Assembly (NCBI RefSeq): GCF_003544915.1
Contig: NZ_CP032097.1
Location: forward strand, 1,984,001 to 2,048,000
Direction of reading: 5' to 3'
Length of the DNA stretch: 64,000 nucleotides
Origin: Arcobacter ellisii
GTDB taxonomy: Bacteria > Campylobacterota > Campylobacteria > Campylobacterales > Arcobacteraceae
The translations under genes were made by a program, and so were the position numbers. The notes under the pieces are model-generated. The model was not told the origin of the DNA, did no database searches, and was given only the letters and a program-made list of their open reading frames with translations. Position 1 is the stretch's first letter. Each line of letters starts with the position of its first letter. This document shows positions 5,795 to 36,616 of this stretch, piece by piece.

Positions 5795-5812
5795 GAAGAG
5801 AATTCTTCCTAA
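5790..5812. terminator. Bidirectional hairpin terminator between amt-GGDEF and purL
   Basis: A near-perfect inverted repeat (ATTAGGAAGA ... TTCTTCCTAAT) overlaps the stop of the transporter gene and lies just before the convergent purL stop. AT-rich tracts follow on both sides. Confidence 0.7.
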
Positions 5813-5825
5813 TAAATTTTATTTA

Positions 5826-20714: not shown

Positions 20715-21554
20715 TTATCTTCTCCTAAAATTCAAACTTTGTAATAAATCATTTTTAGTAATTATTTCATTGTCATTTAAATCAGCAATTGTTCTTGCAA
20801 CCTTTAAAACTTTATTAATACTTCTAAAGGATAATTGATAATTTATTCTTGCTTTTTCTAAAATATTAAGACTCTCTTCATCTAAAATACAATATTTTTT
20901 TATCTCTTCATCACTTAATTTTCCATTTAACTCTTTTTGTCCTCTTTGTTTTTGTTTTATAAAAGCCTTGATTACATTTTCGTGTAACTCTTTAGAAGTA
21001 ACTTTATTTTTTGAATCATTAAAACTATCATTCATCACAAGATACAAATCAATCCTATCTAAAAATGGTTCACTCAAACGATTCTTATATCTTTGAATTT
21101 CAAGTTCATTACATCTACACTCTTTTACACTTGATAATAAATTCCCACAAGGACAAGGATTCATGGCAGAAATAAAAGTAAATTTCGTTTCATACAAAAT
21201 TTTATTATTTACCCGTGAAATTAAAATTTTATTATCTTCCAAAGGTTCTCTTAATGCTTCTAAAACAGTTTTTGAGAAGTGAGGTAATTCGTCAAAAAAG
21301 AGTAAACCATTATTACTTAAAGCAATTTCTCCCATCTTTGCATTTGAACTTCCACCTCCAAATATTGAAGATTTTGTTGCACTATGATGGGGAGAACGAA
21401 ATGCTCTTATTGGTGAAAAATCAACCTCTTTAAAATCTAAAGCTTGAAGTTTAGCTTTTTCTAAAATCTCTTCTAAACTCATAGGTGGCATTATATATTG
21501 AACTCTTTTTGAAATCATAGATTTTCCACAACCAGGACTTCCCTCCATAATCAA
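20715..21554 (-). pseudogene. comM: comM, C-terminal part (AAA+ ATPase half), separated by island 1
   Basis: This piece carries the Walker A motif GSPGCGKSM, Walker B LLFFDELPHF, and the zinc-binding CPCG...CRCNE segment of the magnesium-chelatase-like ComM helicase. It lacks the N-terminal Lon-protease-like domain, which lies at 35918-36616. Residues before IMEGSPG come from the island. Joined, the two parts give about 505 residues, the normal ComM length, with the junction inside HHL|IMEG. ComM promotes branch migration in natural transformation, so that function is presumably lost or reduced. Confidence 0.9.
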
Positions 21555-21625
21555 ATTATAAGTATGTACTAATATAGATAATGAATCTAAATTTTTTAAA
21601 TTATTTATTATGCTAATATTTAAAT

Positions 21626-22981
21626 ATGAAAATATATATTAACAATGAATGGCACATATCTACCATTATAAATAATGTAAGCATTGAATTCTCACATGCT
21701 AATGCATATAGTAAATATTTAACATTAATTAAAAATTTATCTCCAATAACTATTAAAAATAATATGAGTAGTTTAAATAAATTTTGGATTTGGTCATTAG
21801 CGGTATCTCCAGAGGATAATGAAAGTCTAGCTTATTATATAGCAAGATATAGATTAGATTTAGAAAAAGGTTTTATTATATATGACTATAATAAAGAAGA
21901 AAAAGTAAAATTTCCAATAAGTATAATTAGATCCAATAGTCAAACAACAATTGATAATGAAGTAACAAATATTAAGAATTTTTTTACTTGGTTGTCAGAA
22001 ACTGATGATAAGTTTAATATGAATAGAAATACAATTAATCTAAAAAAAGAATATTATAGAAAAATAAATGGTAAACACTCTGACTATATTAGTACATACA
22101 TAAATAAACTCTCAAGAGAAAGAATCTTAAAAAAAGTCTACAATATACCATCAAATAAAAAAAGAATTGTAAATGTAGAAAAAGCTTTTCCATATGATTA
22201 CTTTATAGAATTGATTAAAATATCAGATATAAGAGAAAAATTATTATATCTTTTAATGGGAGGAACTAGTGCTCGAATATCACAAGTTCTAAATTTAACT
22301 ATATATGACATTGATTACGAGAATATGAATGTTTACTTATCTGATCCTAGTATTGATGATGAGAATCAACGAGGATATTTAGGAGAAACTAGGAAAAAAT
22401 GGCTTTTTGAAAAATATAATATTGATGTAAAATATCAACATCCTCATAATTTGATACAATTTAAATACCCTATTCCCAAAAGACCTAATACACCTCTTTA
22501 TTGGCTAAATGAAGAAATAAAACTTTTATTTTTTGGATTCTTATCAGAATATAATATTTTTCCAGAAAATCAACGTATGCCAATACATCCTTTCTTTTTT
22601 ACTAAAAAGAATGGAGAAAGACTTTTATATAAACCCGTTTATAATAAATTTTTAAAACATTGTGAAATTTTGTCCAACTATTATAATGATAAAAACTTAT
22701 TAACCTTTTCTCCTCATTCTTTAAGACATATGTGGGGAAATTATTTAGCAGAACTATATTCTCTGGCAATTAATATTGAAGATTATTCAAATGCTGAAAA
22801 AATTAAAATTTATGCAAAAGAAGGTATGGGACATTCAAATGAAGATTCAACTAAGTTATACTTTAATATAAATTTTAATAAAGATTTCAAAGATATTACT
22901 TATGAACTATCTTCACTGATTAACCAATATAAACATCTTCCTCCTCAAATTTTTACACAAGGTTTAAAAAATGAAAATTGA
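21626..22981 (+). CDS. Tyrosine recombinase, TnpA-like (first of a trio)
   Basis: The 451-residue protein has the catalytic residues of tyrosine recombinases: Arg at about 217 (TSARISQVLNL), the HSLRH box at about 364, and GHSNEDSTKLYF with the nucleophilic Tyr at about 411. An N-terminal SAM-like domain (about 25-130) precedes it. The next gene starts inside this one (11-bp overlap). In Tn554-type elements all three proteins are needed for integration. The gene lies at the element edge reading inward, as expected. Confidence 0.88.
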   Translation: MKIYINNEWHISTIINNVSIEFSHANAYSKYLTLIKNLSPITIKNNMSSLNKFWIWSLAVSPEDNESLAYYIARYRLDLEKGFIIYDYNKEEKVKFPISIIRSNSQTTIDNEVTNIKNFFTWLSETDDKFNMNRNTINLKKEYYRKINGKHSDYISTYINKLSRERILKKVYNIPSNKKRIVNVEKAFPYDYFIELIKISDIREKLLYLLMGGTSARISQVLNLTIYDIDYENMNVYLSDPSIDDENQRGYLGETRKKWLFEKYNIDVKYQHPHNLIQFKYPIPKRPNTPLYWLNEEIKLLFFGFLSEYNIFPENQRMPIHPFFFTKKNGERLLYKPVYNKFLKHCEILSNYYNDKNLLTFSPHSLRHMWGNYLAELYSLAINIEDYSNAEKIKIYAKEGMGHSNEDSTKLYFNINFNKDFKDITYELSSLINQYKHLPPQIFTQGLKNEN

Positions 22982-23558
22982 TAAAAGAAAATATAATGAC
23001 AATTCTAGAGAATGGAATAATACTAAAGTAGAAGAAAGAAAATTAGCATTAAAAGTAACTTGTCAAAAGATTCTCAAATTACAAGAACCTATTACCTTTT
23101 CACATATAGCTAAAACTATGAAATTATTATATGAAAAGAATATTACATTAAGTGCACAGACTATTTCACAAACAAATATATATAGATCTATATGTAATGA
23201 TATTCTAAATATTGACGATATTCCTGAAAAAAAACGAAAAATTGAAAATACTTCAAGAATTGAACTTTCAAATGAACTTCATAAAAAAAAGATTCTGATT
23301 TCACAACTTACCAGAGAAAATAAAATACTCAGAGAACGAATTCAAAAATCAAATATCCCAGAAAATACATTTAGTGAATATTCTATCAATACAAGAATTG
23401 ATAAGGTATCAATAGAAATTATAAATATACTAATTAATGAACTAATTAAATTAGGTGACTTCTATATTGATAGAAATGGTTTAATCAGAGAAACTGATGG
23501 AAAAATATTTATTTCCAATCAAATATTAGAATTATTTAATATAAAAAAGGAAGCATAA
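22971..23558 (+). CDS. Small TnpC-like accessory protein of the recombinase trio
   Basis: A 195-residue, strongly charged protein with a predicted coiled coil around residues 95-125 (NELHKKKILISQLTRENKIL). Size, coiled coil and position between two recombinases match Tn554 TnpC, which biases orientation and efficiency of transposition. No catalytic residues are seen. It overlaps tnpA by 11 bp and abuts the large recombinase without a gap. Confidence 0.75.
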   Translation: MKIDKRKYNDNSREWNNTKVEERKLALKVTCQKILKLQEPITFSHIAKTMKLLYEKNITLSAQTISQTNIYRSICNDILNIDDIPEKKRKIENTSRIELSNELHKKKILISQLTRENKILRERIQKSNIPENTFSEYSINTRIDKVSIEIINILINELIKLGDFYIDRNGLIRETDGKIFISNQILELFNIKKEA

Positions 23559-26456
23559 ATGGAATACGTAAAATATGTAGATGAATTTCCTGAAATAAAC
23601 TATACTAATAAATATCTAATATTAAAAAAATATAAAAATGATTTCCATATTTTTTACAATGATATACTAAAAGTTTATTTACCACACTTACTCAATATAA
23701 AAACATTAAAATTAAAAACTAGCCATAAAATGATTGAATTATTGAGCAATGGAAATTGGCAAGAGTTAAAATATTATCCACGAATCAGAGAATCAATTAT
23801 TACAGAAGATAAAATACATTTTAAAGATTTTAGAGACTGGAATGATTATTTTATCCATATTGATAGTAAATCATCTTATCCAATTTTTAAAACTACAGAT
23901 ATAAAAAAAAGAACTCATTATGGTCCTGCACCATTCAATCTTATTGCTGAATTTATAATAATTTTAGCAAGTAAAGGAATACTTAAAACACCTTTATATT
24001 CTACTTCATTATATTTCTCTAATAGTCCTTTTGTATTAAATTTTTTTGAGAAATATTTTAAAACAAATCAAATTTATCAAGAATTAAATAATTCACTAAA
24101 TTTTTACTTTAAATCTACTGTAAATAAAACATTTATCAACAGTATAATACTTTTAAGTTCAAATATAAATTATAAGAATATAACTGATAAAAATATAGAA
24201 AATCTTCAAAAATATTATAAAGATAATAACTTAAATTTAACAAAGTATGAAAAGAAAGACAATGTTAATAAAAAAAATGATATTTTCTCATATACTAATT
24301 CTCAATTAGAAAAGCTCCCTCTTATATTTATCAAGCTTGGTGCAAACGTAAACACGATATCACAGAAAAAAGCTAAAAACAAAACCATTGATGATTATTT
24401 CGACTATTCAAAAAAAATTTTAGAACAAAAAAGATTTAATACAAATCCTCAATTCAAAGAAATGGTATTTTCTTTTTTCAAACAACTTTATCTTGTTGAT
24501 AGATTAACAATAGATACAATTAGACAAAAAATTAGAATACTACTTGATTTTTTAAAAGAACTTGTTGAAACTTTTAACCACACATACATTACAAAAGAAA
24601 AAATGCAAAGCTATCTTGATTACCCAATTAATGAGAATACTTATCAAAAATATCTAAAAGAAAAAGAAAAAAAAGGAGTAACTAGTGAAGAACTAATCAG
24701 ATCTCAAGGCATTGTAATTGATTTCTTAAATAGTACAAATCTTTACTATGGAATTTTTAAAGAAAATACTAGAGTTAGATTTAATTCATATAAAGGTGCA
24801 ACTTTATTTAGAGAATCACTAGATGAAGAAGTTTATAATTTAATAATAGATATTTTACTAAATCGTCCACCTTATATAAAAAACTTAAAAAAGTGGGGTT
24901 CTGTACAATGTGATTGGTCCAATTGGTGGCCACATAAAGTAATTCCTTTTTTGCCACTATCTCTATTATTACACTTACATCTACCACTAAGATCTGCTCA
25001 CATACTTAATTTAGATAGAGATAACTTTTTATTACTAAATCCAGATGACTCTATAAAAGGATTTTATATAAATACAGATAAGAACACATCTAAAAAAGAT
25101 TTACATATAATCCCTAATATATATAAAAATGAACTAAATATATATAAGGAGCTGATAAAATTAAATAAAAAAATGTTTCCAAATCTTAAAAAAGTGAAAT
25201 ATAAAAATGATATAAATTCACCTTGGGAGGAATTTTATCCTTTATTTCCAAACTTTGATGGAGATAATGTGATGTCAAGAACAATTTATGAACATTATTT
25301 CAAAATAGTTGTTCTAATGGCCCAATTTGAGATTTATAATAAGAATAAAGATATCTTAATTGCATGGTTTGAAAATTCAACTTATTTTCCAAAATCAATT
25401 AATGAAATTGAAAATTTAAGTGCACGTACTATTCAAACAAAAGTTAAATTATCATTTGGACTACACTCATTGAGAGTTACTGGAGCAACAAGATTATTAA
25501 GGATGGGGTTTCCACCACAAATAATTAGATTATTTACAGGACATAAAGGTGTAAATACATTAATTAATATTTATCTTAAAATTCCTCATAAAGAATTAAT
25601 TGAATCTTATTTTAAAATTAGTGATAATATTAACACTTCTACCCCTAAAGGATTAAACAACTCACTAAGATATATCCCTTCATCAATAGTTTCCCCGATA
25701 AAAAACAAAACACCTGAAAAAATCTTAATGGAACTTAAAAAAAATCATCTTTTTACATTAAAAAGAATAGTTACTGATGTTAGAAAAACAACAAATACTA
25801 GAATTGAGATAGATAATGGATTAGAAGTTATGTCAGAAATACATTGGACTCATTGGCAAAGTTATAGTTTTGGTATTTGTGGAAAACCTGATGTATGTCC
25901 AATTGGAGCAGAAAATAGATGTTCTTTATGTCCTTACTTAGCTACAGGTCCCTTATTTTTACAGGGAGTAATAATAAAAACTCAACAAATTCAAAAAAGA
26001 ATTTTAGTACAAAGTAATATAATTGCAGAGAATAGGAAACTTGGACAATATGAAAAAAATAAATCTTTTCATAAACAACAATCATCTGATATAGAAGAGC
26101 TTGCAGGTTGGTATGAAATTATTAGTTTAATTGAAAAAAAAATAAAAGAAGATATTAAAGACAAAGAATTAGGAAATAAAATTATAAAATCAAAAGAAAG
26201 AGACCTACAACTAGTTTATTATGAAAATGTATCTGAAATTGATGGTCTCATAAAAATTTATGAAGAAGCAAAAATGTTAAATCTTTATAATCCTGATATT
26301 GAAGATACAATTTATAGATTATCTTCAAAAATCATAAAATATTGTATGAATAATAACATTAATGAAATAATTCAATATATTGATGAACCAACAAAAGTAA
26401 TAGAGTGGTTTATACCTCAAAAAGAAATTAAATTTAATAAAAAATATTTAACTTAA
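23559..26456 (+). CDS. Large tyrosine recombinase, TnpB-like, with C-terminal cysteine cluster
   Basis: The 965-residue protein contains a catalytic core with Arg near 477 (LPLRSAHIL), LHSLR near 636 and GHKGVNTLINIYL with Tyr near 671. A C-terminal block at about 774-800 has the cysteines of CGKPDVCPIG and CSLCPYL, probably a zinc site, then a helical tail. Tn554 TnpB is shorter (about 630), so this belongs to a long branch like those in recombinase-trio islands of proteobacteria. The stop is 69 bp from the convergent cargo operon. Confidence 0.87.
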   Translation: MEYVKYVDEFPEINYTNKYLILKKYKNDFHIFYNDILKVYLPHLLNIKTLKLKTSHKMIELLSNGNWQELKYYPRIRESIITEDKIHFKDFRDWNDYFIHIDSKSSYPIFKTTDIKKRTHYGPAPFNLIAEFIIILASKGILKTPLYSTSLYFSNSPFVLNFFEKYFKTNQIYQELNNSLNFYFKSTVNKTFINSIILLSSNINYKNITDKNIENLQKYYKDNNLNLTKYEKKDNVNKKNDIFSYTNSQLEKLPLIFIKLGANVNTISQKKAKNKTIDDYFDYSKKILEQKRFNTNPQFKEMVFSFFKQLYLVDRLTIDTIRQKIRILLDFLKELVETFNHTYITKEKMQSYLDYPINENTYQKYLKEKEKKGVTSEELIRSQGIVIDFLNSTNLYYGIFKENTRVRFNSYKGATLFRESLDEEVYNLIIDILLNRPPYIKNLKKWGSVQCDWSNWWPHKVIPFLPLSLLLHLHLPLRSAHILNLDRDNFLLLNPDDSIKGFYINTDKNTSKKDLHIIPNIYKNELNIYKELIKLNKKMFPNLKKVKYKNDINSPWEEFYPLFPNFDGDNVMSRTIYEHYFKIVVLMAQFEIYNKNKDILIAWFENSTYFPKSINEIENLSARTIQTKVKLSFGLHSLRVTGATRLLRMGFPPQIIRLFTGHKGVNTLINIYLKIPHKELIESYFKISDNINTSTPKGLNNSLRYIPSSIVSPIKNKTPEKILMELKKNHLFTLKRIVTDVRKTTNTRIEIDNGLEVMSEIHWTHWQSYSFGICGKPDVCPIGAENRCSLCPYLATGPLFLQGVIIKTQQIQKRILVQSNIIAENRKLGQYEKNKSFHKQQSSDIEELAGWYEIISLIEKKIKEDIKDKELGNKIIKSKERDLQLVYYENVSEIDGLIKIYEEAKMLNLYNPDIEDTIYRLSSKIIKYCMNNNINEIIQYIDEPTKVIEWFIPQKEIKFNKKYLT

Positions 26457-26525
26457 TTCTAAGTAATATTGAATAATATTCACTAATGAAAATATCTATT
26501 TATATTCCTTCACCATTAAACTTTA

Positions 26526-27101
26526 TTACTTAAAATAATATCTAATGTCTTTTTTTGACATATTATTTGTATTTAGTAAAAGAAGATTATACATTCCCGA
26601 AAGTTTTTGATTTCCTTCTAATGTAATTACAACATGCTTTTCATCTTTATTTTCACAATATTTTGGATTATCAAAAGTAAAAAAAGTTCTACAAACAAGA
26701 GGTCTAAATTGATAAATACTACAAATACCTTTATCTTGATTTAAAAAAGGGCAATAGTCATTTGTATTAATTTTCTCAATATTTTGTCTTTTATATTCAG
26801 TATTTCTTTCTATATATTTAATTTCTAACTCTGAAACGTCAACTGGTATCTTACAACAATGTGAACAACCTTTTTGACATACAGTAATTTCATCAATACT
26901 AGTATTAACTAAATCTGCATATGTATACAGTTTTTTTAATTTTGATAAATCTTTATAATTACCTTTTAGACTATTCATGAAATCTTTTTCTTCTTTTTCA
27001 ACTGAAAAATTAATAGGTCTAAATTTTAATCCTATTTTTTCTTCAGCTTGTTCTTTTGTTTGATACCTTTTTATTATTTTTTCATCAGTTCCAATATTCA
27101 T
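26526..27101 (-). CDS. YkgJ-like cysteine cluster protein, fourth gene of the E2-E1/JAB operon
   Basis: The 191-residue protein has eight cysteines in the YkgJ pattern: Cys75, 79, 82, 83 (CxxxCxxCC), then Cys117, 127, 137 (RPLVCR) and 149. Such proteins are presumed to bind a metal or Fe-S cluster; their biochemistry is poorly known. It starts five bases after the JAB peptidase stop and is last in the operon. A link to ubiquitin-like systems is not something I know from the literature, so its role here, for example as target, redox partner or effector, is open. Confidence 0.8.
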   Translation of the reverse strand: MNIGTDEKIIKRYQTKEQAEEKIGLKFRPINFSVEKEEKDFMNSLKGNYKDLSKLKKLYTYADLVNTSIDEITVCQKGCSHCCKIPVDVSELEIKYIERNTEYKRQNIEKINTNDYCPFLNQDKGICSIYQFRPLVCRTFFTFDNPKYCENKDEKHVVITLEGNQKLSGMYNLLLLNTNNMSKKDIRYYFK

Positions 27102-27105
27102 TTAT

Positions 27106-27576
27106 TTATTCCTTAAAATATTTTATATCATAAAATTTTAAACCGTTAAATGATTTAAACCAGTTTTCTTTTCTTCCCAAAATTAAATAAAGTAATAAGT
27201 TCTGTTGAACTTTACTTTGATAATAATTAACAAAAAATGTTTTATAATCTCTCAAGGACGGCTCTGCCTTCCATTGAGGATGAGTATGCCAATCACCTAA
27301 GTAAGTGATTTGTCCATTACTTTGTTCCCATATTCGTTCAATATTCTCTTGTAAATAGTTTACATTCAGTTCTAAGCCATATTCACTTGAGTTTAAAGGA
27401 TTATCTTCAAAAAAATGAGTGATTTCAATAGTGTTGTTTTGAGGATATAATTTTCCTAAAATAACACCACCTTTTTCTCTATTAAATTCAAACTGACGTA
27501 AAGTTAAAAGTTCTTGTTTCAATTGATTACTGATATAAACTTTTAAATTTTTATTTTGGAATTTGATTTTATTCAT
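27106..27576 (-). CDS. JAB/JAMM metallopeptidase (Mov34/MPN fold), candidate deconjugase
   Basis: The 156-residue protein has a complete JAMM site: Glu34 (REKGGVILG), His97 and His99 (GDWHTHP), Ser107 and Asp110 (PSLRD). In eukaryotes and in CBASS (Cap3) and Bil systems this fold cleaves ubiquitin-like proteins from targets or trims their precursors. It lies four bases after the E2-E1 fusion, so processing or removal of a small protein made by this operon is the natural inference. A role like RadC or cysteine-release JAB proteins is less likely given the neighbours. Confidence 0.9.
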   Translation of the reverse strand: MNKIKFQNKNLKVYISNQLKQELLTLRQFEFNREKGGVILGKLYPQNNTIEITHFFEDNPLNSSEYGLELNVNYLQENIERIWEQSNGQITYLGDWHTHPQWKAEPSLRDYKTFFVNYYQSKVQQNLLLYLILGRKENWFKSFNGLKFYDIKYFKE

Positions 27577-27580
27577 ATTT

Positions 27581-29245
27581 CTAAAAATTTCTTTTAATTA
27601 AAGTATTTTCATTTATAGAATATCCATCTTTTAGATATTTATTTAAATTTTCAATTTCACCAATTGAAGTCCAATGTGTTTCAATTTTTTCATCTAATAA
27701 ATATTTTACAATCATATTTGCAAAATGATTTAAATGCAAATTTGCGTTTAAATATGTATATGGCATATAATTGGAATTACACCCAACATCACTTTTTACA
27801 AATTCTAATGTAGCTTTTCCATCTAAAAATGTGATTTCTTTAAATAAGCTATTCATATTAAATTCTTCACTATTAATTGAATCATCAAATAATAATGAAT
27901 GTCCTATTGATGCAGTAGCTTCAAACCAACAAGATATAACAGCCTTAACATTCCCATTAATCGCATCTCTAATGATTTTTTCTTCAATATGATTTGCATC
28001 GCTTCCTAAGGCAGTTATAATTAAGTCACATTCCGTTAATTTTTCAAATTGATTCTCAACATAATCATCAATTGCATTTATATTAATATCTAAAAACTGT
28101 TTTTCTAAATAAGTTTTAAGTGCTAAAGCTTTATTTTGTTCAAGATACTCCATACCAAGTAAATGTCTTGCTATATTATTTGAACTTAATGTCTCTGGAT
28201 CAATTAATACAATATTGGTACAACCAATTTTAATTAATTTGTGTGCTAATGAAGACCCAACTGAACCGCAACCTACTATGGCAATCTTTTTCCCTTTTTT
28301 ATTTACATTAACATTCATTAAAGTTCCACCTCTTTTATATAACCTACTATTAGAAATATCCATTGCTAATATTCCATAAATTTCTTTGTTTGCATTTTCT
28401 TTATTAAGAAAAGGATTAATAAAATTCATTACATGAGTTGATTTCTTTTCATTAAAATAAATGCCTGCATAATGAATTTCTTTTGTATTTGGTATATTGA
28501 AAGAAAATAAAATAGCGTGAACTACGTTTTTTATCTTTTTAATTTTTTGAAGATTACTTAAATATCCAAGCTTTATAATAAGGTTTTTTAAGTCATCATA
28601 AGTTTTAGGTATGTTGTTTTCTAACTCTTTTTCAAAATTTATATATAGAATTTTATTTTTACTATATTCATAATTTGCACTTTTACAAAATTGTTTTATG
28701 AATTTTTCTTCTTCTATAAAAAGTAATTCTTGAATTTTTGTTTTAACAATATATGCATCAAGTAGTTTAAAAGACTTATATTTAGTAATAAGATCTTTAT
28801 TATAATGAATTTTTCCTCTTGCACTACACCAATAACTGTCGAATTCATCAAAAATTTCATTTTTATCAAATTCATTATTTTCAATTTTACTTAAAAATTC
28901 TTCAAGTCGATTATATGAATCACATAGTAAATCGTAAGGATTTTCATAATATAACTTATCTTCTTCCGCATTTAAACATATTCCATAAGCATTAATTCTA
29001 TCATTAAATTGCTCAATATGTGGGTATCTTAGAAACATGCTTTTATTAGTTGTATAGAATTTTGGATACTTTAATGGGAAATTATGACTGATTTCAGTTA
29101 TAATCTCCACAGAAGATTTATTAATAATGAAAAATTTACTCATTAATAACAAATCTTTACTATCTGATTTAGATGTGTCTATAAAATTTAATTCCTCCAA
29201 ATATCCCTTCGCCAAAAGTTGATTTGAAGTTAAATTATTAGGCAT
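27581..29245 (-). CDS. E2-E1 fusion: ubiquitin-conjugating-like domain plus ThiF/E1 adenylation domain
   Basis: Residues of about 20-130 resemble an E2 fold: the FPLKYPKFY segment, then the candidate catalytic Cys90 in YGICLN, and the NPYDLL helix. A central region of about 170 residues has no clear motif. Residues of about 315-500 form an E1 domain with nucleotide loop GCGSVG (325-330), Asp349, Asn356 and Arg360 (NNIAR), and candidate thioester cysteines Cys439 (ISCWFEA) and Cys489 (VGCNSN). This layout is that of Cap2 in CBASS, but no CD-NTase gene is present. The ATG at 29245 is chosen over a start 15 bases earlier; it overlaps the DUF1508 gene by 8 bp. Confidence 0.85.
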   Translation of the reverse strand: MPNNLTSNQLLAKGYLEELNFIDTSKSDSKDLLLMSKFFIINKSSVEIITEISHNFPLKYPKFYTTNKSMFLRYPHIEQFNDRINAYGICLNAEEDKLYYENPYDLLCDSYNRLEEFLSKIENNEFDKNEIFDEFDSYWCSARGKIHYNKDLITKYKSFKLLDAYIVKTKIQELLFIEEEKFIKQFCKSANYEYSKNKILYINFEKELENNIPKTYDDLKNLIIKLGYLSNLQKIKKIKNVVHAILFSFNIPNTKEIHYAGIYFNEKKSTHVMNFINPFLNKENANKEIYGILAMDISNSRLYKRGGTLMNVNVNKKGKKIAIVGCGSVGSSLAHKLIKIGCTNIVLIDPETLSSNNIARHLLGMEYLEQNKALALKTYLEKQFLDININAIDDYVENQFEKLTECDLIITALGSDANHIEEKIIRDAINGNVKAVISCWFEATASIGHSLLFDDSINSEEFNMNSLFKEITFLDGKATLEFVKSDVGCNSNYMPYTYLNANLHLNHFANMIVKYLLDEKIETHWTSIGEIENLNKYLKDGYSINENTLIKRNF

Positions 29246-29660
29246 ATCTTTTTTCTGCACTTCTTTCTGGTTTAACAGTCACTGTTGCTGCTGTTCCTGT
29301 ATTCGAAGATGAAGTTTCATCTACAAGTACCAAACTTATTCCATGTTTTTTTACAGATTCAATTCCATTGTTTCTTGCTTCTGTTGTAGAATACATTTCA
29401 CTTGTACCAATTATTTTATGGTTTTTTGCACATAAATTAAAATACGGACTTTCATCTTTTGCTACTAATCTTTGATAATTTTCATCATCTTCACAGTTTT
29501 TTCTTACTGATTCAATACCAGTTAATGCATCATGTCTGTTAACATAATTCTCTGATTTTAAAATCACTTGGTGATTCGCAGCCTTTAAAACCCAATGATA
29601 AGGTTGTTCTATACCATCATGTTTATATAAAACATAATATCCATTTTTTTTATCGTTCAA
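29238..29660 (-). CDS. DUF1508/YegP tandem-repeat protein, possible ubiquitin-like modifier or substrate
   Basis: The 140-residue protein has two DUF1508 repeats, about 7-53 and 70-107 (the second with KIIGTSEMYSTTEARNNGIESV), and a flexible tail 113-140 rich in Ser, Thr and Lys ending in RYA. Known DUF1508 proteins such as YegP are small and of unknown function. It is first in an operon with an E2-E1 enzyme and a JAB peptidase, the place where a ubiquitin-like protein or CD-NTase is expected. The start is TTG at 29660 with AAGGAG upstream. Domain call firm; role inferred. Confidence 0.85.
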   Translation of the reverse strand: MNDKKNGYYVLYKHDGIEQPYHWVLKAANHQVILKSENYVNRHDALTGIESVRKNCEDDENYQRLVAKDESPYFNLCAKNHKIIGTSEMYSTTEARNNGIESVKKHGISLVLVDETSSSNTGTAATVTVKPERSAEKRYA

Positions 29661-29683
29661 ATTGAACTCCTTGTGTTAATATG

Positions 29684-29720
29684 TACTAGTATATAGAAAC
29701 TAGTATTAGAATGATACTAA
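29684..29720. promoter_or_regulatory. Repeated ACTAGTAT operator-like sites in a divergent promoter region
   Basis: The 245-bp gap between the DUF1508 gene and the WYL regulator contains ACTAGTAT twice as a direct repeat 14 bp apart (29685-29692 and 29699-29706), followed by an inverted half site GATACTAA. The sites lie upstream of both genes, so autoregulation and control of the operon by the WYL protein are plausible. Confidence 0.45.
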
Positions 29721-29905
29721 AAAAAGAAACAAAAGTCAAATATAGTTCTAAAATAAAAGAATCAAAAGAAATAAATATCAATTTTTTTTCTAAAATTAAA
29801 GAATATATATGTACTAAATATTACAATATATTAAAAATTTACTTGATTTTTTATCATAATTAATGATAAAATACTTTTTATTAATTATAAATAGGACAAA
29901 TAAGT

Positions 29906-30796
29906 ATGATAGAAAGAGTGAAAGAAATTTATTTAAAATTATATAGGGAAGGTTACTCTTGTACAAAAAATAAATTAAAAGACTATTTTAAAGTTACTGA
30001 AAAAACCATAGAGAATACTTTAAAGCCTTATTCCAAAGTTATAATTTATGATAAGCAATTAAAAAGATATAGGTTTACTAAACTTTTACCAGATTTTATC
30101 CCTTATGAGGTTTTTTATGAAATATTTAGTGAAAGTATTGCAAATAGCACTATAAAAAAAGATTTTCTTAAAATAAAAAATCTATTCATGCAAGAAAATG
30201 ATGGTATTGTTATGATTAGTACTTCTGATTTATCAGATTTTGCAAAAAAAATTATAATGTTCACAATTGCTATAAATGATAATAATATCTTAAAAATTGA
30301 ATATACAAAAAATGGTGACCAAAAAGAAACTAAAGTTATAAAACCTCATACAATAATATGTAATGGTTTTACATATTATTGTTATGCAAGTTATGAAAAA
30401 CGAAATGAAAAGGATGTTGGTTCTATAAGAACATTTGAATTTAATCGAATAGGTAACGTTGAAAGTTTAGAATTTTTATCTGATGAAATATTCAAAATAG
30501 AACAAAATGGTAATGCTTTTGGTCCATATGAAAAAAATAAATATATTGTTTTAGAATTTGATAGAATGAGCACAGATTTTTTTAGAAAATCAAATATTTT
30601 TCAAAATTCTACTTATGAAATTATTGATATTAATGAAAATACTTTAATTGCAAAAATGTATTACAATAGTTTAGAAATTGAAGTAGTAAAGCTCATTCAA
30701 CAATGGATGCCACATATAAAAATTTCAGATGATGATGAAAATAAAAGTAAAGTTTATAAAATAATAAAAGATAATTTTGAAAAATTAATTTTTTAA
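29906..30796 (+). CDS. WYL-domain transcriptional regulator
   Basis: A 296-residue protein with an N-terminal winged helix (about 1-60: KNKLKDYFKVTEKTIENTL), a central WYL domain (about 125-205) and a C-terminal WCX region ending in the usual VVKLIQQWMPHIKI. WYL regulators often control phage-defence operons and may respond to nucleic acids or nucleotides. It is divergent from the DUF1508-E2/E1-JAB operon. The ATG follows AGGACA. Confidence 0.88.
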   Translation: MIERVKEIYLKLYREGYSCTKNKLKDYFKVTEKTIENTLKPYSKVIIYDKQLKRYRFTKLLPDFIPYEVFYEIFSESIANSTIKKDFLKIKNLFMQENDGIVMISTSDLSDFAKKIIMFTIAINDNNILKIEYTKNGDQKETKVIKPHTIICNGFTYYCYASYEKRNEKDVGSIRTFEFNRIGNVESLEFLSDEIFKIEQNGNAFGPYEKNKYIVLEFDRMSTDFFRKSNIFQNSTYEIIDINENTLIAKMYYNSLEIEVVKLIQQWMPHIKISDDDENKSKVYKIIKDNFEKLIF

Positions 30797-30805
30797 AAGA
30801 AATTT

Positions 30806-30820
30806 GTTTCCTCAGGAAAC
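30806..30820. repeat. 15-bp palindromic repeat, copy 1
   Basis: GTTTCCTCAGGAAAC, symmetric about the central C. An identical copy lies at 31624-31638; together they bracket the two small plus-strand ORFs. Confidence 0.75.
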
Positions 30821-30854
30821 TTAAACACATACAACTTTTCAATAGAAAATAAAA

Positions 30855-31043
30855 ATGTTAAATTCAAAAGAAAATAAGAAAATTAACTTTAAAAATGATA
30901 TTTCAAACAAATTTATTGATCATTTTTCTTGTATATTTAATTCTAAAAAATTATTAGAAGTAATGAAATACCACCAGGAATATAGTATTAAATGTATCTA
31001 CATTCCCTTAAATTACTCAAATGGAAATGGTAATGGATTATGA
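30855..31043 (+). CDS. Small hypothetical protein
   Basis: A 62-residue open frame rich in Lys, Asn and Ser, ending with a Gly-Asn repeat. It lacks a clear ribosome site and no family is recognised. Support is limited to its position between the two palindromes and its pairing with the next ORF 30 bp downstream, so it may not be a real gene. Confidence 0.3.
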   Translation: MLNSKENKKINFKNDISNKFIDHFSCIFNSKKLLEVMKYHQEYSIKCIYIPLNYSNGNGNGL

Positions 31044-31073
31044 AATTTAACTTTTTTTGTAAAAAATTCTAAA

Positions 31074-31460
31074 ATGAAAATTATAATTTCAAAACATGCT
31101 ATAAAAAGAAGAAAACATTATTTACCTATCAATAAAGATATTTTAATTCAATTAGTAAAACAAATTGATGACAAATATTTTATTTCAAAAAGAGATGATA
31201 ATGCATATAAAATAGGATATAAAGGTGCAATTGCAATAATTGAAAAAAATGAAAATTCTTTACTCTTGATTACAGCTTATGGTTTTCAAAGATTTGATTA
31301 TAAAATCGGTAATAATAAATTTAAAATTTCAATAGCTCTTTCAAAAGAAGAAAGAAAAAAGATTAGAGAAAATAAGAAAAATATATTTTCAAATATTGAA
31401 ATATCTGAGCATGATAAAACAATAGCTAATAATTTTGAAAGAGAAAAATGCTCATGTTAG
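31074..31460 (+). CDS. Small basic protein, possibly DUF4258/RelE-like
   Basis: 128 residues beginning KIIISKHAIKRRKHYLP, a pattern like DUF4258 and related RelE-fold proteins in which an H-A-x-x-R segment begins the domain. The body alternates strands and ends in a charged tail with a CSC terminus. With the preceding small ORF it could be a toxin-antitoxin pair, but the resemblance is weak and no strong ribosome site is seen. Confidence 0.45.
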   Translation: MKIIISKHAIKRRKHYLPINKDILIQLVKQIDDKYFISKRDDNAYKIGYKGAIAIIEKNENSLLLITAYGFQRFDYKIGNNKFKISIALSKEERKKIRENKKNIFSNIEISEHDKTIANNFEREKCSC

Positions 31461-31623
31461 AATTAGAAGAATTTTATTTCAAATATTTTTCGAAATAAAA
31501 TTCATATGCTTAATGTATTAAAATATTTAATAGATTAATATTTGCAGTTTTTACAATTAATACTATTTATTCTTATTTAACTACAAATATTTTTCAAAAT
31601 ACTTATATTTAGAGTTTAAAAAA

Positions 31624-31638
31624 GTTTCCTCAGGAAAC
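31624..31638. repeat. 15-bp palindromic repeat, copy 2
   Basis: Second exact copy of GTTTCCTCAGGAAAC, downstream of the small ORFs. The surrounding stretch 31461-31726 is AT-rich and holds nothing else that I recognise. Confidence 0.75.
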
Positions 31639-31726
31639 AGAAAAAAGTCGCTTCAAACTTCATATGAAAGTTTAATTACTAAATTACAATTTTTTAGTTG
31701 TATATTAGTACTATTAAATAACTTTA

Positions 31727-32872
31727 TCAATGAATATATACCTGTCGTGAAACCAAGGAATTATCATTATGTATTGGGATAATTTCTCTTGTAGATTTAT
31801 CAAAATAATTTTGTGTAATTTCATAGGCACTAAACAAATCATCATCCAAAGGAATATTTGCATAAGGATTATAATATATATGTAATCCATCTAGGTGAGA
31901 TTCATAATGTTCTGATAAATTACAAAAATGTACATCAGAACCAAAAACAATATCATCCATTGGTATTCTCATTGATATTACAGTATGTGTTTGAGATAAT
32001 TTTATTTCTTTATAACCTAAACTTTCAATACCATAAGTGTTAATATGTTTGTTAAAATCTTCAATTCTAAAACGAGTAGATTTAATCGTAGTATTTGACA
32101 TTTGACTTTGTGAAATGGCTTTTCCAAAAGTTCCAGTAGTTGAAAAAATAATAGCACTTATTTCTTTATAAGAATCATTAGTAAAAATACCCAAATTTAT
32201 TTCTTTCCCATTATTATTTACAATATGATTTATTTTTTTTGATGAACTGTTATTTATATCTCTCATTGTTGGTGGAAGCACTCCAAATAAAACTTGATTA
32301 ATTAAAGTATTATTTTGTGTATGGGAAAGATGATTATCAAAAGGAGCTAATGCAATTACAAATGGTTTATCTCTAACATGTTCTAATTCAGAATAAGGAT
32401 TTTTCTTATTATTTATACCAACAAATAAATCTTTTTTATCTTTTATTTTTCCTAATAGTTTTAGTATTGAATCTTTAGAACCATCATTTTTTTTTGTATT
32501 TATAGTTTCATTAAATGCTTTTTCAGAATAGTAACCCTCATCATTTGATGATTTATTGTTACTTGTAACTGCTTCAACATTTACTGTTCTTCCAGATGAA
32601 TGAATTAAATTAAAATCTGGACTTTCTTTCGAATAATCAATTTTGAAGCCCAAATCTTGAAAAGCTTTATTAAGATAAAGTTCCCATAAAGATGAATTAA
32701 ATGATATTTGTAATTCTTTAACAAATTTATCTTCTTCTTTCTTTCTTGCATCTAAACCTTTAGACCAATTTTCTAATATAGTCAAAACATTTTTGTATTT
32801 TTCATCCTTAATTATTTTCTTAAAATAAGGGTGTAATTGTTCATCCTTTACTCTGGGTGTAAATAAATCCAT
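31727..32872 (-). CDS. Putative PD-(D/E)XK-like nuclease paired with the TrlF-type ATPase
   Basis: Unrecognised family, 381 residues. The N-terminal third suggests a PD-(D/E)XK nuclease core: Glu64 in SSLWELYLNKAF, Asp86 in SPDF, and Glu100 in VNVEAV, where the usual Lys is replaced by Val. The rest has no motif I know. It starts 25 bp after the stop of the PHP-ATPase gene and is surely cotranscribed with it. Together they look like a sensor-ATPase plus nuclease defence pair; the nuclease assignment is tentative. Confidence 0.55.
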   Translation of the reverse strand: MDLFTPRVKDEQLHPYFKKIIKDEKYKNVLTILENWSKGLDARKKEEDKFVKELQISFNSSLWELYLNKAFQDLGFKIDYSKESPDFNLIHSSGRTVNVEAVTSNNKSSNDEGYYSEKAFNETINTKKNDGSKDSILKLLGKIKDKKDLFVGINNKKNPYSELEHVRDKPFVIALAPFDNHLSHTQNNTLINQVLFGVLPPTMRDINNSSSKKINHIVNNNGKEINLGIFTNDSYKEISAIIFSTTGTFGKAISQSQMSNTTIKSTRFRIEDFNKHINTYGIESLGYKEIKLSQTHTVISMRIPMDDIVFGSDVHFCNLSEHYESHLDGLHIYYNPYANIPLDDDLFSAYEITQNYFDKSTREIIPIHNDNSLVSRQVYIH

Positions 32873-32897
32873 TTTTTTCCTTTATACTCTATTTATT

Positions 32898-35570
32898 TTA
32901 TAAAACTTTCAATCCATATATTTCTTGTCTACGAATAAAAGCTTGTTTCCCACCTTCTAATATTGAACAACATAATTCACGGGTTGCATCATTATCTATT
33001 GAACCAGAATCTATGATAAATGATTTAATACTTGTACTTTTTAGAGGAATAACTAATTCTGCATCTCCTAAAACTGCAATATTTGGATTATGAGTTACAA
33101 CAATGACTTGTCTTTTTTCTTTAATTCTTCTAAGATTACTTACTATCGTTTTGTAAATAAATTCACTATCTAAATTATCTTCAGGTTGATCAATTAATAA
33201 AGGAACTCTACTCTTTGATTGAATAAGAATTGCAAGAAGAATCGATTGTTGTTGACCTAAAGATAATTGAGAAATTGAGCGACTTAAATATTTCTTAGCT
33301 CCGTTATCATCTATTATTTTTGTTACTGATAAACTAGGTTTATCATCATATTTAAAAGCTTCAAAATCCTCATATTTATAATTATCTATTGCTCTTTCAA
33401 TAATATTATTAATTTCTTCATCTTGAAAAACTCTTTTTCCATCTTCTTTAATTTGTGCGAGAGATGATAAATTTTTTTTCTTAACCCCTTCACAAAAGTC
33501 CATGACAGATAATTCATTAGCTATTATTTTTGCTTTAGAAACTTGTGATGTTCGCCATCCCATTAGATCTTTTATTGAGTTCTCAAATTCTGGAGAATAT
33601 GTACTTTCTTTATATTCTGCTTTTATAAAAAATTCATCTACTGCATCCTTTAGATTATTATTAATTACATTTGAAAACAAAAATCGTTGTTTATAAATTT
33701 CTTTCTTTACTTCTTTTCTTCTTTTTATTAAATCTTTTCTATTTTTTTCTAACTCTTTAAGTTCATTTAAAATTTCTTCTTGCTTTTTTAACCTATCTTG
33801 ATAATATGCTAAATCTTTAATTATTTGATTAATTTTTCCTAAATCAAAAGGTATTCCTTGCTTTTCTAATTCACTTTTTTTCTCATCTATTTTTGTTAAA
33901 ATATTTTTTTCTTTATCTTTCCATAAATCCAATTGAATTTTAAGTTCTCCAACTTTGGGAACAAGTTCCTCATTTAATTTTACAGAAGTTTTTTTAACTA
34001 CATTTGAAAATTCTTCAACTATTATTTTAACTTTTAAAAATTCTTCTTTTCCAATAATTATTTCATCATCAGTCATTCCTGAAAATGATTTAAATGCTTC
34101 TTCATCATTTAAAACATCTCTATAATTATCAATTAATTTTTTGAGTTTAGATATCAATTCATCACGAATCTTTTTTTCATTAGCTAATGACATTTGATAC
34201 TTAACTAAATCTCCAACTTTATCTTGTTCTAATTTTTTAACTTTCTCTGATATATTAGTAATTTGTTTTCTTGTATCAGGAATACCCTTTACCTCAATAC
34301 GTGCTTTAGTTAAAGAGCTTTGATTTTCTAAAAGTAATTCACATAATTCTTGATCTTCTTTAATTAATGGCTCTATCTCAATAAAGCTATCTAAAAAATC
34401 AAGCAATACTTTTGGGTTATCATCACTATGTTGAATCGTCGATGCAGTTTCTCCTTGTCCATAACTCTCAATAGGAATACGTATAATTCCATCTGTCATG
34501 TCTGTTATGTTAATGCTAGATGAATTCTTTTCTCGTTTAAACTCTATTTGTCTACCTGTTTCATCCTCATAAAACATACTTATTTCATCAGACCATATAT
34601 CCGTGTCTTTAACTTTAGATGTTGAAACATTTCCTGAAACTTCTCGTAATGACTCTAGCATTGTTGACTTTCCAGTCCCTCTTCCTCCAATTATGCATGT
34701 AAGATTTTTACTAAATCTTATTTTCTGTTCATCTAATAATCCACCTTTAAATTTTAAGCCAATAAAATGGGGAATTTTTTCTGGAATCATATTTTCAAGT
34801 CTAACCCTAGATTCATAGCTGATTAAAGCTATTTTAAGAGCATGAAAACTTAATGAATCAACTTTAAAACGTGTTAATCTTTTATCTCCATCTGCATTAG
34901 TCCCTAATTTATCCAATTTATGGGCATCAGAAGACATAATTTTTGGTAAAATCAAATCAAAACGCTGTTCTAATTTTGTTCTTCGTTCATTTAAAAGCTT
35001 TTTTCTATCATCATTAGTATCTACATCTGTATAATAATCAATACTATTTTTTGAACTAATTTCTAATGCTAACAAGCTTGGATGAATAAAAATATCCTCT
35101 ATAACTTTGTTGAATCGTCCTATAACTTTTTCAAAACCTGAGTCTAATTCAATATGAGCAAGAACTCCAAACCCATTAAATTCACTTGCGAATCTCAAAC
35201 ATTGAACTATGCCTTGCTCACATCGTTCCTTATCGTCTGAAATAGTGAGCTTACCAAAAAACTTTCTTAATTGTTCATATGTTTCAAAATAAACTAATAA
35301 ATGACCTTGCGTAGTACTAATTTCAATACCGGGAATAACAAGAATATTTTTATTATTAGCATAATCAATTGCTTTCTTAGAGTTCTGAATCTCATTATGA
35401 TCTGTAATACTAATTATAGAAAGATTATTCTCAATTGCTATATCAACAATATTTTGTGGCGTCATACTAGAATCTGTCACATCAAATGAACCATCTTTTC
35501 CATAAGAATGTATATGTAAATCAGCTCTTACAAAATCGGCCCCAAAATTTAAGTTATTTATTTCTTCCAT
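32898..35570 (-). CDS. TrlF-type protein: PHP phosphoesterase fused to an SMC-like ABC ATPase
   Basis: The 890-residue protein begins with a PHP domain (ADLHIHSYGKDG, ITDHNE, PGIEIS; about residues 15-240), then an ATPase with Walker A GGRGTGKST at about 290, a long coiled-coil section (about 400-690), ABC signature LSLGQQQS at about 768 and Walker B LLIDQPEDNLDS at about 790. PHP domains hydrolyse phosphoester bonds. The combination is found in TrlF-like proteins encoded near defence genes. It is the first gene of a two-gene operon near the right end of the island. Confidence 0.85.
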   Translation of the reverse strand: MEEINNLNFGADFVRADLHIHSYGKDGSFDVTDSSMTPQNIVDIAIENNLSIISITDHNEIQNSKKAIDYANNKNILVIPGIEISTTQGHLLVYFETYEQLRKFFGKLTISDDKERCEQGIVQCLRFASEFNGFGVLAHIELDSGFEKVIGRFNKVIEDIFIHPSLLALEISSKNSIDYYTDVDTNDDRKKLLNERRTKLEQRFDLILPKIMSSDAHKLDKLGTNADGDKRLTRFKVDSLSFHALKIALISYESRVRLENMIPEKIPHFIGLKFKGGLLDEQKIRFSKNLTCIIGGRGTGKSTMLESLREVSGNVSTSKVKDTDIWSDEISMFYEDETGRQIEFKREKNSSSINITDMTDGIIRIPIESYGQGETASTIQHSDDNPKVLLDFLDSFIEIEPLIKEDQELCELLLENQSSLTKARIEVKGIPDTRKQITNISEKVKKLEQDKVGDLVKYQMSLANEKKIRDELISKLKKLIDNYRDVLNDEEAFKSFSGMTDDEIIIGKEEFLKVKIIVEEFSNVVKKTSVKLNEELVPKVGELKIQLDLWKDKEKNILTKIDEKKSELEKQGIPFDLGKINQIIKDLAYYQDRLKKQEEILNELKELEKNRKDLIKRRKEVKKEIYKQRFLFSNVINNNLKDAVDEFFIKAEYKESTYSPEFENSIKDLMGWRTSQVSKAKIIANELSVMDFCEGVKKKNLSSLAQIKEDGKRVFQDEEINNIIERAIDNYKYEDFEAFKYDDKPSLSVTKIIDDNGAKKYLSRSISQLSLGQQQSILLAILIQSKSRVPLLIDQPEDNLDSEFIYKTIVSNLRRIKEKRQVIVVTHNPNIAVLGDAELVIPLKSTSIKSFIIDSGSIDNDATRELCCSILEGGKQAFIRRQEIYGLKVL

Positions 35571-35917
35571 TGTTTTTTATTCCCTATATATTATTGTTGT
35601 TGTTTATCTATCATAAAGTATTGAAATAATTATATGAACTAGTTTCACAAATATGTTGTTTTACTCTTTTGGGGTATAACTTATTATCATTTTTATAATA
35701 CACAAATGAATTCCTCTTTAAGTTTTAAAGTAACTAACTATTAGTTACAAGTGATTATATAATAATTAATACAATGATTTATTTATTAATCTAAATAAAA
35801 ATATATTATTCAGTATAATTTTGTAACATTTCAAGTATAAATTTGTAGATTCTATATACTTTCAATATAATGAATTAAAAATAACACCTTTAAATAAGAA
35901 CATTTTTTAATTCATGG
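35571..35917. other. Non-coding right end of island 1
   Basis: 347 bp of AT-rich sequence with no credible gene. It holds one clear inverted repeat, GTAACTAA-CTA-TTAGTTAC (35730-35748), and the promoter region of the TrlF-type gene. The repeat could be a terminator-like structure or a recombinase arm site. Confidence 0.5.
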
Positions 35918-36616
35918 TTAAAGTTCAGTATATATTAGGTGGTGATTTCCAGCTGCGCAAATCATAGCAGCATATTTAGCCATATCTTGCCCAATAACAT
36001 CACTGAAATCTTCAGGATAATTTGTTTCATAAAAATATTTTTCACTATTTATTTCTAAAATCTTATGTTTAATCTCTTTTTTTTCATATAAGAATTCTTC
36101 TTTTTTTTCACTCTTGATAAACTCTATTGCTTCGTTTAACTCTTTCACTTTATAAATTTGTAAATTTGGAATATTTACTAATTTTTTTGCACTCTCTTCA
36201 CAAACAACAACTTTTTTTACTTCACCCTTTTTCACAAGAGATAAAACCATAGGAAAAATCAAAGTTGTATCTTTAATATTCCCATCAAGAGCCAATTCAC
36301 CAAAGAAAAAAAAGTCATCAAAGTTAATTTTTTTATTATCATAAAATGCTATTTGTAAAGCAATTGCTAAATCAAAATGAGTTCCTTTTTTTGATATTTC
36401 AGAAGGAGAGAGATTTACAATAATTTTTAAAGGAGGAAATTTAAAACCATTAATCAATAAAGCAGATTTTACTCTCTCCTTTGATTCACTAATACTTGTA
36501 CTTATCATTCCCACAATCGTAAAAGTCGGTAATCCTTTAGTAAACGTTGATTCAACATCAATTGAAATTGCATCAATTGTGTCTAAAGAGGCTGATTTAA
36601 TTATTTTCATATTCAT
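35918..36616 (-). pseudogene. comM: comM, N-terminal part (Lon-protease-like domain)
   Basis: 232 residues from the ATG at 36616 match the N-terminal Lon-protease-like domain of ComM, ending DFSDVIGQDMAKYAAMICAAGNHHL. The next codons (IYTEL, stop) come from the island. The ATPase half is at 20715-21554, 14.4 kb away. The interruption falls just before the Walker A motif, so this fragment cannot bind ATP. Confidence 0.9.

Follow-up and report, generated by a model that had tools for sequence, protein, structure and literature searches.

Which protein does a Cap2-like conjugating enzyme act on when the gene upstream of it does not encode a CD-NTase? This question is raised by an operon at positions 26526-29660 of the window, the 64,000-nucleotide (nt) stretch of Arcobacter ellisii DNA analyzed here (NZ_CP032097.1, positions 1,984,001 to 2,048,000), in which a DUF1508 (YegP) protein precedes an E2-E1 fusion and a JAB peptidase. 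We consider it likely that the operon conjugates a protein reversibly and descends from the Cap2/Cap3 arm of the type II cyclic oligonucleotide-based antiphage signaling system (CBASS), with a tailed DUF1508 protein replacing the CD-NTase. Conjugation, its targets, and a role in phage defense are what we infer from the genes and their relatives.

Gene Content of the Operon

The operon consists of the following features.

29238-29660, minus strand: DUF1508 (YegP) protein of 140 amino acids (aa) with two repeats (PF07411, 120.9 bits); the proposed conjugated protein
29241-29309, minus strand: C-terminal tail of the DUF1508 protein, residues 118-140, ending KRYA; disorder predicted from residue 119
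29238-29245, minus strand: 8-nt overlap of the DUF1508 stop and the E2-E1 start, common to all five distinct loci described below
27581-29245, minus strand: Cap2-like E2-E1 fusion of 554 aa, counted from the ATG that is conserved (ThiF, 58.7 bits; PADLOC E1-E2, 194.7 bits)
28976-28978, minus strand: codon of E2 Cys90 (computed position), invariant in 10 of 10 alignment rows (alignment number C95)
27779-27781, minus strand: codon of the probable E1 Cys489, in VGCNS (computed position), invariant in 10 of 10 rows (alignment number C494)
27106-27576, minus strand: Cap3-like JAB/JAMM peptidase with complete catalytic residues (Prok-JAB, 38.4 bits; PADLOC JAB, 100.9 bits)
26526-27101, minus strand: YkgJ-like protein, accessory, transcribed in the same direction as JAB (CxxCxxCC, 40.7 bits)
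29711-29739, minus strand: promoter-like TTGACT-17-TATCAT 5' of DUF1508; the frequency of such matches in the region is not above chance

The DUF1508 gene starts with TTG, ahead of which lies AAGGAG. The E2-E1 start was taken as the ATG at 29245, the start of its relatives; the open reading frame (ORF) tool had placed it at the GTG at 29260. With the ATG start, the E2 Cys90 and the intact E1 nucleotide loop (GCGSVG, first residue 325) that an earlier note had read from this DNA were both borne out. The note's JAMM peptidase likewise has all its catalytic residues (E34, H97, H99, S107, and D110, invariant across eight of eight aligned homologues), and its YkgJ-like protein with a CxxxCxxCC motif carries CQKGCSHCC. 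The PF07411 match falls into two stretches, in agreement with the tandem-repeat DUF1508 protein that the note had placed in the substrate slot of a conjugation-type operon. Its description of four contiguous, partly overlapping genes was right as to their presence, but only DUF1508 and E2-E1 overlap; the gaps between E2-E1 and JAB and between JAB and YkgJ are 4 nt each. Similarly, its statement that neither a CD-NTase nor a beta-grasp protein is present held for the ten neighbouring window proteins scanned, none of which matched those families; the genome carries one CD-NTase at some distance.

The Pfam E2 model PF14461 had no match in the A. ellisii genome and none in control genomes, and this null is uninformative because the controls were empty too. 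The E2 was assigned because of full-length PADLOC E1-E2 matches together with the alignment. The best matches of the E1 domain were solved Cap2 chains.

Recurrence of the Operon

The co-occurrence of DUF1508 with E2-E1 and JAB genes, which the earlier note had proposed as a check, was found at five distinct loci, all in Campylobacterota. These were the window, L034 (genome G428 of the window's family), L011 (Aliarcobacter cryaerophilus plasmid pCNAC48, whose DUF1508 is absent from the PLSDB gene table), L023 (an Aliarcobacter metagenome-assembled genome, MAG), and L012 (G311, a Sulfurimonas MAG). The core order of tailed DUF1508, E2-E1, and JAB was kept in all five, as were the divergent WYL-type gene and the 8-nt overlap. 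Identities to the window for L034, L011, L023, and L012 were 74%, 46%, 46%, and 30% in E2-E1 and 76%, 59%, 62%, and 48% in DUF1508, respectively. Three further loci were left out of the count: L024, identical to L011 in 562 of 564 E2-E1 residues, and L025 and L027, which are the same DNA as L012 and L023, respectively. L024 lies on a MAG contig labeled Fusobacteriaceae, and its operon is nearly identical to that of pCNAC48; the label is probably a binning error.

At a threshold of 1e-8, E2-E1 matches were obtained in 10 of 397 phylum genomes: two belonged to the operon (A. ellisii and G311), two to CBASS (G320 and G031), and six were short matches in the E1 region. At 1e-20, 6 of 104 family genomes matched, three through the operon (A. 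ellisii, G402, and G428) and three through CBASS (G406, G416, and G417). No E2-E1 was found in viral contigs or phage records, and a genome-contig search with the window E2-E1 alone gave no result. For DUF1508, the viral contigs yielded one tail-less YegP (L056), and three phage records matched, none of which reached the tail. DUF1508 matches were also present in 21 plasmid records. The Aliarcobacter record is the operon; eight others had neither a ThiF nor a JAB annotation within 4 kb and no E2-E1 by tblastn; and 12 (seven Escherichia, three Acinetobacter, Photobacterium, and Dyadobacter) lay outside the reading. The E2-E1 matched 249 plasmid records, of which seven neighbourhoods were read, and other partners may therefore be missed. 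All occurrences seen thus fall within Campylobacterota, outside which sampling was shallow.

Descent and Selection

A maximum-likelihood tree of 15 E2-E1 proteins was midpoint-rooted; its long branches are L017, L022, and L037. The five DUF1508-linked E2-E1s formed one group (97/95), whose sister comprises three Campylobacterota Cap2s from operons starting with patatin and CD-NTase. These eight were split (100/100) from the seven others, five of which are CBASS Cap2s. The E2-E1/JAB pair of the operon is thus placed by the tree as a side branch of CBASS Cap2/Cap3 and not as a separate lineage. At L017, a 59-aa ORF (5721-5900) ending SESA lies 5' of the E2-E1-JAB pair.

Nonsynonymous (dN) and synonymous (dS) divergence was calculated by the Nei-Gojobori method for two pairs of loci. 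Between the window and L034, dN/dS was 0.128/0.948 for DUF1508, 0.154/0.798 for E2-E1, and 0.152/0.876 for JAB; between L011 and L023, the corresponding values were 0.073/0.187, 0.059/0.211, and 0.034/0.106. All three genes are thus under purifying selection.

The C-Terminal Tail of DUF1508

DUF1508 proteins linked to E2-E1 are 140-166 aa long, versus 109-113 aa for the eight annotated plasmid YegPs that were read. The five tails of the linked proteins end KRYA, KRYA, GRYA, GRYA, and NKYA, so that [RK]YA and a C-terminal alanine are found in five of five. In the three sister loci and L036, the CD-NTases end GRMA, ERQA, GRQA, and GRQA (R[MQ]A), and more distant ones end GNSA, SQGA, SQGA, and ASGA. 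Among 211 ORFs of at least 120 aa from 14 loci, mostly chosen for holding these systems, 12 had an [RK]xA end: the five DUF1508s, three CD-NTases, and four others.

DUF1508 is rare in the phylum: at 1e-8, it matched 12 of 398 order genomes. In three of these 12, all of them E2-E1-linked, the match extended to the end of the tail model. Of nine unlinked Campylobacterota DUF1508s, the C-terminal ends of eight were read (G472 was left out), and the tail was absent from all eight. At L057, a DUF1508 gene accompanies a homologous divergent WYL gene (43% identity to that of the window), but the tail is missing and the 12 kb contain no E2-E1. This locus is a natural control. At the sequence level, the tail accompanies E2-E1; neither DUF1508 nor the regulator in itself is associated with it.

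In the predicted model of DUF1508 (the best of five, one of which was poor), the tail was disordered, with a predicted local distance difference test (pLDDT) score of about 33, versus about 95 for the core. The model closely matched the YegP structures 2k49 (E 9.1e-14) and 2k8e, and no ubiquitin-like entry was named among the best 50 of 712 structure matches.

Proposed Mechanism and Alternatives

In type II CBASS, according to the available part of PMC10097602, Cap2 binds the CD-NTase through its C-terminal residue as a thioester and then conjugates it mainly to lysines, Cap3 cleaves at the C-terminal end of the CD-NTase, and conservation of G or A at this end is limited to operons with full Cap2 and Cap3. 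By transfer of this chemistry, DUF1508 would be the conjugated protein here. The E1 would adenylate its C-terminal alanine and hold it as a thioester on Cys489, the protein would be handed to E2 Cys90 and then onto target lysines, and JAB would cut after the terminal alanine to reverse the attachment. What the attachment does is the least certain part. The outcome we favor, at about an even chance, is that DUF1508 is a ubiquitin-sized tag on its targets. DUF1508/YegP would then be a ubiquitin-like modifier without a beta-grasp fold, which a former CBASS Cap2 joins by its C-terminal alanine to proteins of the cell or of a phage and which a former Cap3 removes, a reading that we hold to be evenly balanced.

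Several points weigh against this proposal. Both the conjugation chemistry and the defense role are predicted from sequence. All five loci belong to one clade of one phylum and share no common effector, and we know of no activity for DUF1508. Even beside Cap2, a terminal G or A is not universal, since KEV is the annotated end of the L021 CD-NTase. By codon reasoning, the 8-nt overlap restricts the second-last residue to Y/H/N/D and the last to V/A/D/E/G, so the tail tyrosine may be a coding constraint. The AlphaFold2 model of the E2-E1, built from a four-row alignment, had a mean pLDDT of 45.6 and was too poor to locate a tail site. Finally, in the E. coli CBASS studied, conjugation was reduced when A was substituted for the terminal G, as far as the accessible text of PMC10097602 goes.

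The alternative that we place second, and only tentatively, is that DUF1508 is itself an effector or sensor switched on by conjugation, like the CBASS CD-NTase, with the identity of the target being minor. The priming of CD-NTases by conjugation (PMC10097602, in the portion available) is a direct parallel, and elsewhere DUF1508 occurs alone with damage-type regulators, suggesting an activity of its own. However, it is a small fold of no recognized catalytic family whose close matches are only YegP-type structures, and the missing common effector also tells against such a switch.

It is improbable that the operon is a CBASS remnant in which, after loss of the CD-NTase and effector, E2-E1 and JAB sit idle beside a chance DUF1508 neighbour. 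Neither a CD-NTase nor a known CBASS effector was seen beside any of the five loci read, and truncated relatives occur, namely L017 (a Ruminococcus albus plasmid), where by eye an apparent CD-NTase end only is retained, and the CBASS locus L036 (5831-8529), where the E2-E1 is split by a transposase-like gene. However, gene order and the exact overlap are kept in all five loci at 30-74% E2-E1 identity, dN is lower than dS, the catalytic residues are intact, and the tail is specific to linked DUF1508s. We give as little weight to the idea that the E2-E1 works on a CD-NTase from another part of the genome, with DUF1508 as its adaptor or regulator: A. ellisii does encode one at 1,284,418, about 0.7 Mb from the operon, but it ends YGAK, neither G nor A, its 12 kb stretch contains no E2-E1, and such service would leave the DUF1508 tail unexplained. 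Moreover, the query by which this CD-NTase was detected (8.2e-21 in A. ellisii) had no match in the three other operon genomes covered (G311, G428, and G402; the pCNAC48 host was outside the test).

Genes Downstream of JAB

The gene after JAB encodes YkgJ in the window, a Zn-phospholipase C in L011 and L023 (in L023 by likeness), a small protein without a match in L034, and a resolvase-like protein in L012. These genes differ, and YkgJ is therefore accessory; we interpret the position as holding accessory cargo or a variable effector. Membership of YkgJ in the system, as claimed in the earlier note, did not hold up, and a system of four genes that requires YkgJ is the least credible alternative: the window YkgJ does begin 4 nt past the JAB stop, but YkgJ is found at none of the four other distinct loci, and close relatives occur in genomes without an E2-E1 match. 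These relatives, at L061 and L062 (G292 and G297), come after a repressor gene that by eye is LexA/S24-like, which suggests a separate damage-type YkgJ module. YkgJ-like genes match 1529 plasmid records.

Divergent Regulator

The following gene lies divergently upstream of DUF1508.

29906-30796, plus strand: WYL-domain regulator, CapW-like by position (WYL PF13280, 30.8 bits)

Its homologues at L034, L011, and L023 show 50-58% identity, and it weakly matched the solved WYL protein 7qfz (E 0.0052). The WYL-type regulator of L012 is of another kind and is related to those of the CBASS loci L013 and L037. Different regulators thus serve the same core, as in CBASS. CapW of other systems releases on DNA damage, according to the available part of PMC13373217, and by analogy the WYL protein would repress the operon and let go upon DNA damage or infection. 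Inverted repeats between WYL and DUF1508 were considered as operators and dropped, since this DNA is too AT-rich. The gene 3' of WYL (31074-31460) had no Pfam or PADLOC match; its kin at L034 lies at 5805-6386 (85 of 125 aligned residues), and it may belong with the regulator.

Mobile Setting

The operon lies in an element of about 14 kb (20715-36616) that splits a Mg-chelatase/ComM-type gene, which we take to be comM, into halves at 20715-21554 and 35918-36616. Inside the split gene, the operon stands between three collinear genes and further cargo. Of the collinear genes (451, 195, and 965 aa), 21626-22981 matched tyrosine-recombinase families above the Pfam cut-off and 23559-26456 just under it, and 22971-23558 had no NCBIfam match. 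The first weakly matched GmtY (43 bits; cut-off 340), and these recombinase genes may be a Campylobacterota counterpart of the gamma-mobile-trio type. The cargo includes a PD-T7-5 match (31727-32872; PADLOC, 433 bits) and, at 32898-35570, an ATPase of the TrlF family (NCBIfam, 552 bits; cut-off 350). A diverged PD-T7-5 homologue (L083, 2763-3806; 116 of 329 aligned residues) lies in the same genome beside an hsdM-like gene and a CD-NTase. The mobile, defense-island-like setting is suggestive of phage defense and is not proof of it.

Comparison with Known Systems

The operon resembles type II CBASS in its Cap2-like E2-E1, its Cap3-like JAB, an upstream product ending in alanine, its WYL regulator, and its sister clade. 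It differs in that the upstream gene is DUF1508 and not a CD-NTase, and no patatin, SAVED, or other known effector was found beside it; the window neighbours scanned had no match to CBASS effector families. At L011 and L023, a Zn-phospholipase C with no trigger assigned follows JAB. The JAB scored 66.1 bits against the NCBIfam Cap3 model NF050170, below its cut-off of 200.

The 6A-MBL system (NF058523), judged here by name and description, also has Cap2-type enzymes without a CD-NTase, but their partner is a metallo-beta-lactamase (MBL), whereas the candidate partner here is DUF1508. With a cut-off of 320, the NF058523 scores were 61.0 bits for E2-E1 and 65.5 bits for JAB, and no MBL match was obtained among the ten window proteins scanned. 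Seven MBL operons are given in the available part of PMC13373217. Bil and Bub operons likewise combine E1, E2, and peptidase genes. Their modifier is a ubiquitin-like protein, whereas the present candidate has a YegP fold and no beta-grasp, and its E1 and E2 are fused as in Cap2. According to the same portion of PMC13373217, CapW, CapH with CapP, or capK with capS may be present in Bub operons.

That portion also reports yegP after capK and capS in 57 of 443 loci and suggests possible immune or stress pathways. Like these loci and the WYL- or UmuD-associated YegPs, the operon has YegP beside a damage-type regulator; the E2-E1 and the tail are absent from L057, L077, and L078. Of the tail-less plasmid YegPs L077 and L078, the one from Acaryochloris has umuD as its neighbour, and the one from Marinobacter has a WYL gene that lies near a Y-family polymerase. 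This pattern suggests that YegP is generally linked to DNA-damage control. In our reading, a YegP module under damage control was coupled to Cap2/Cap3 a single time in Campylobacterota and acquired a tail.

By membership, the operon therefore falls outside type II CBASS, Bil/Bub, and 6A-MBL, yet we infer that it works like the CBASS conjugation arm. The earlier view that no such system had been described may stand for the DUF1508 partner, since no link of DUF1508, YegP, or UPF0339 with E1/E2 enzymes was found in print (coverage was partial, so this is weak evidence of absence), but not for the enzymes, which form a CBASS Cap2/Cap3 side branch. One phage-genome paper contains both DUF1508 and ubiquitin. 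Cap2-type enzymes without a CD-NTase have a named precedent in 6A-MBL; DUF1508 as their partner did not turn up in the literature covered. The comparison suggests that the Cap2/Cap3 conjugation module is exchangeable and can be redirected to a new protein when that protein receives a short tail. If DUF1508 is indeed such a modifier, Cap2-type enzymes would gain a further class of substrate. The widespread YegP family, which has had structures since 2008 and no known function, would gain its first activity, and the operon offers it a directly testable function. The operon also fits the report of yegP beside DNA-damage-controlled regulators of immune operons (PMC13373217, in its available part).

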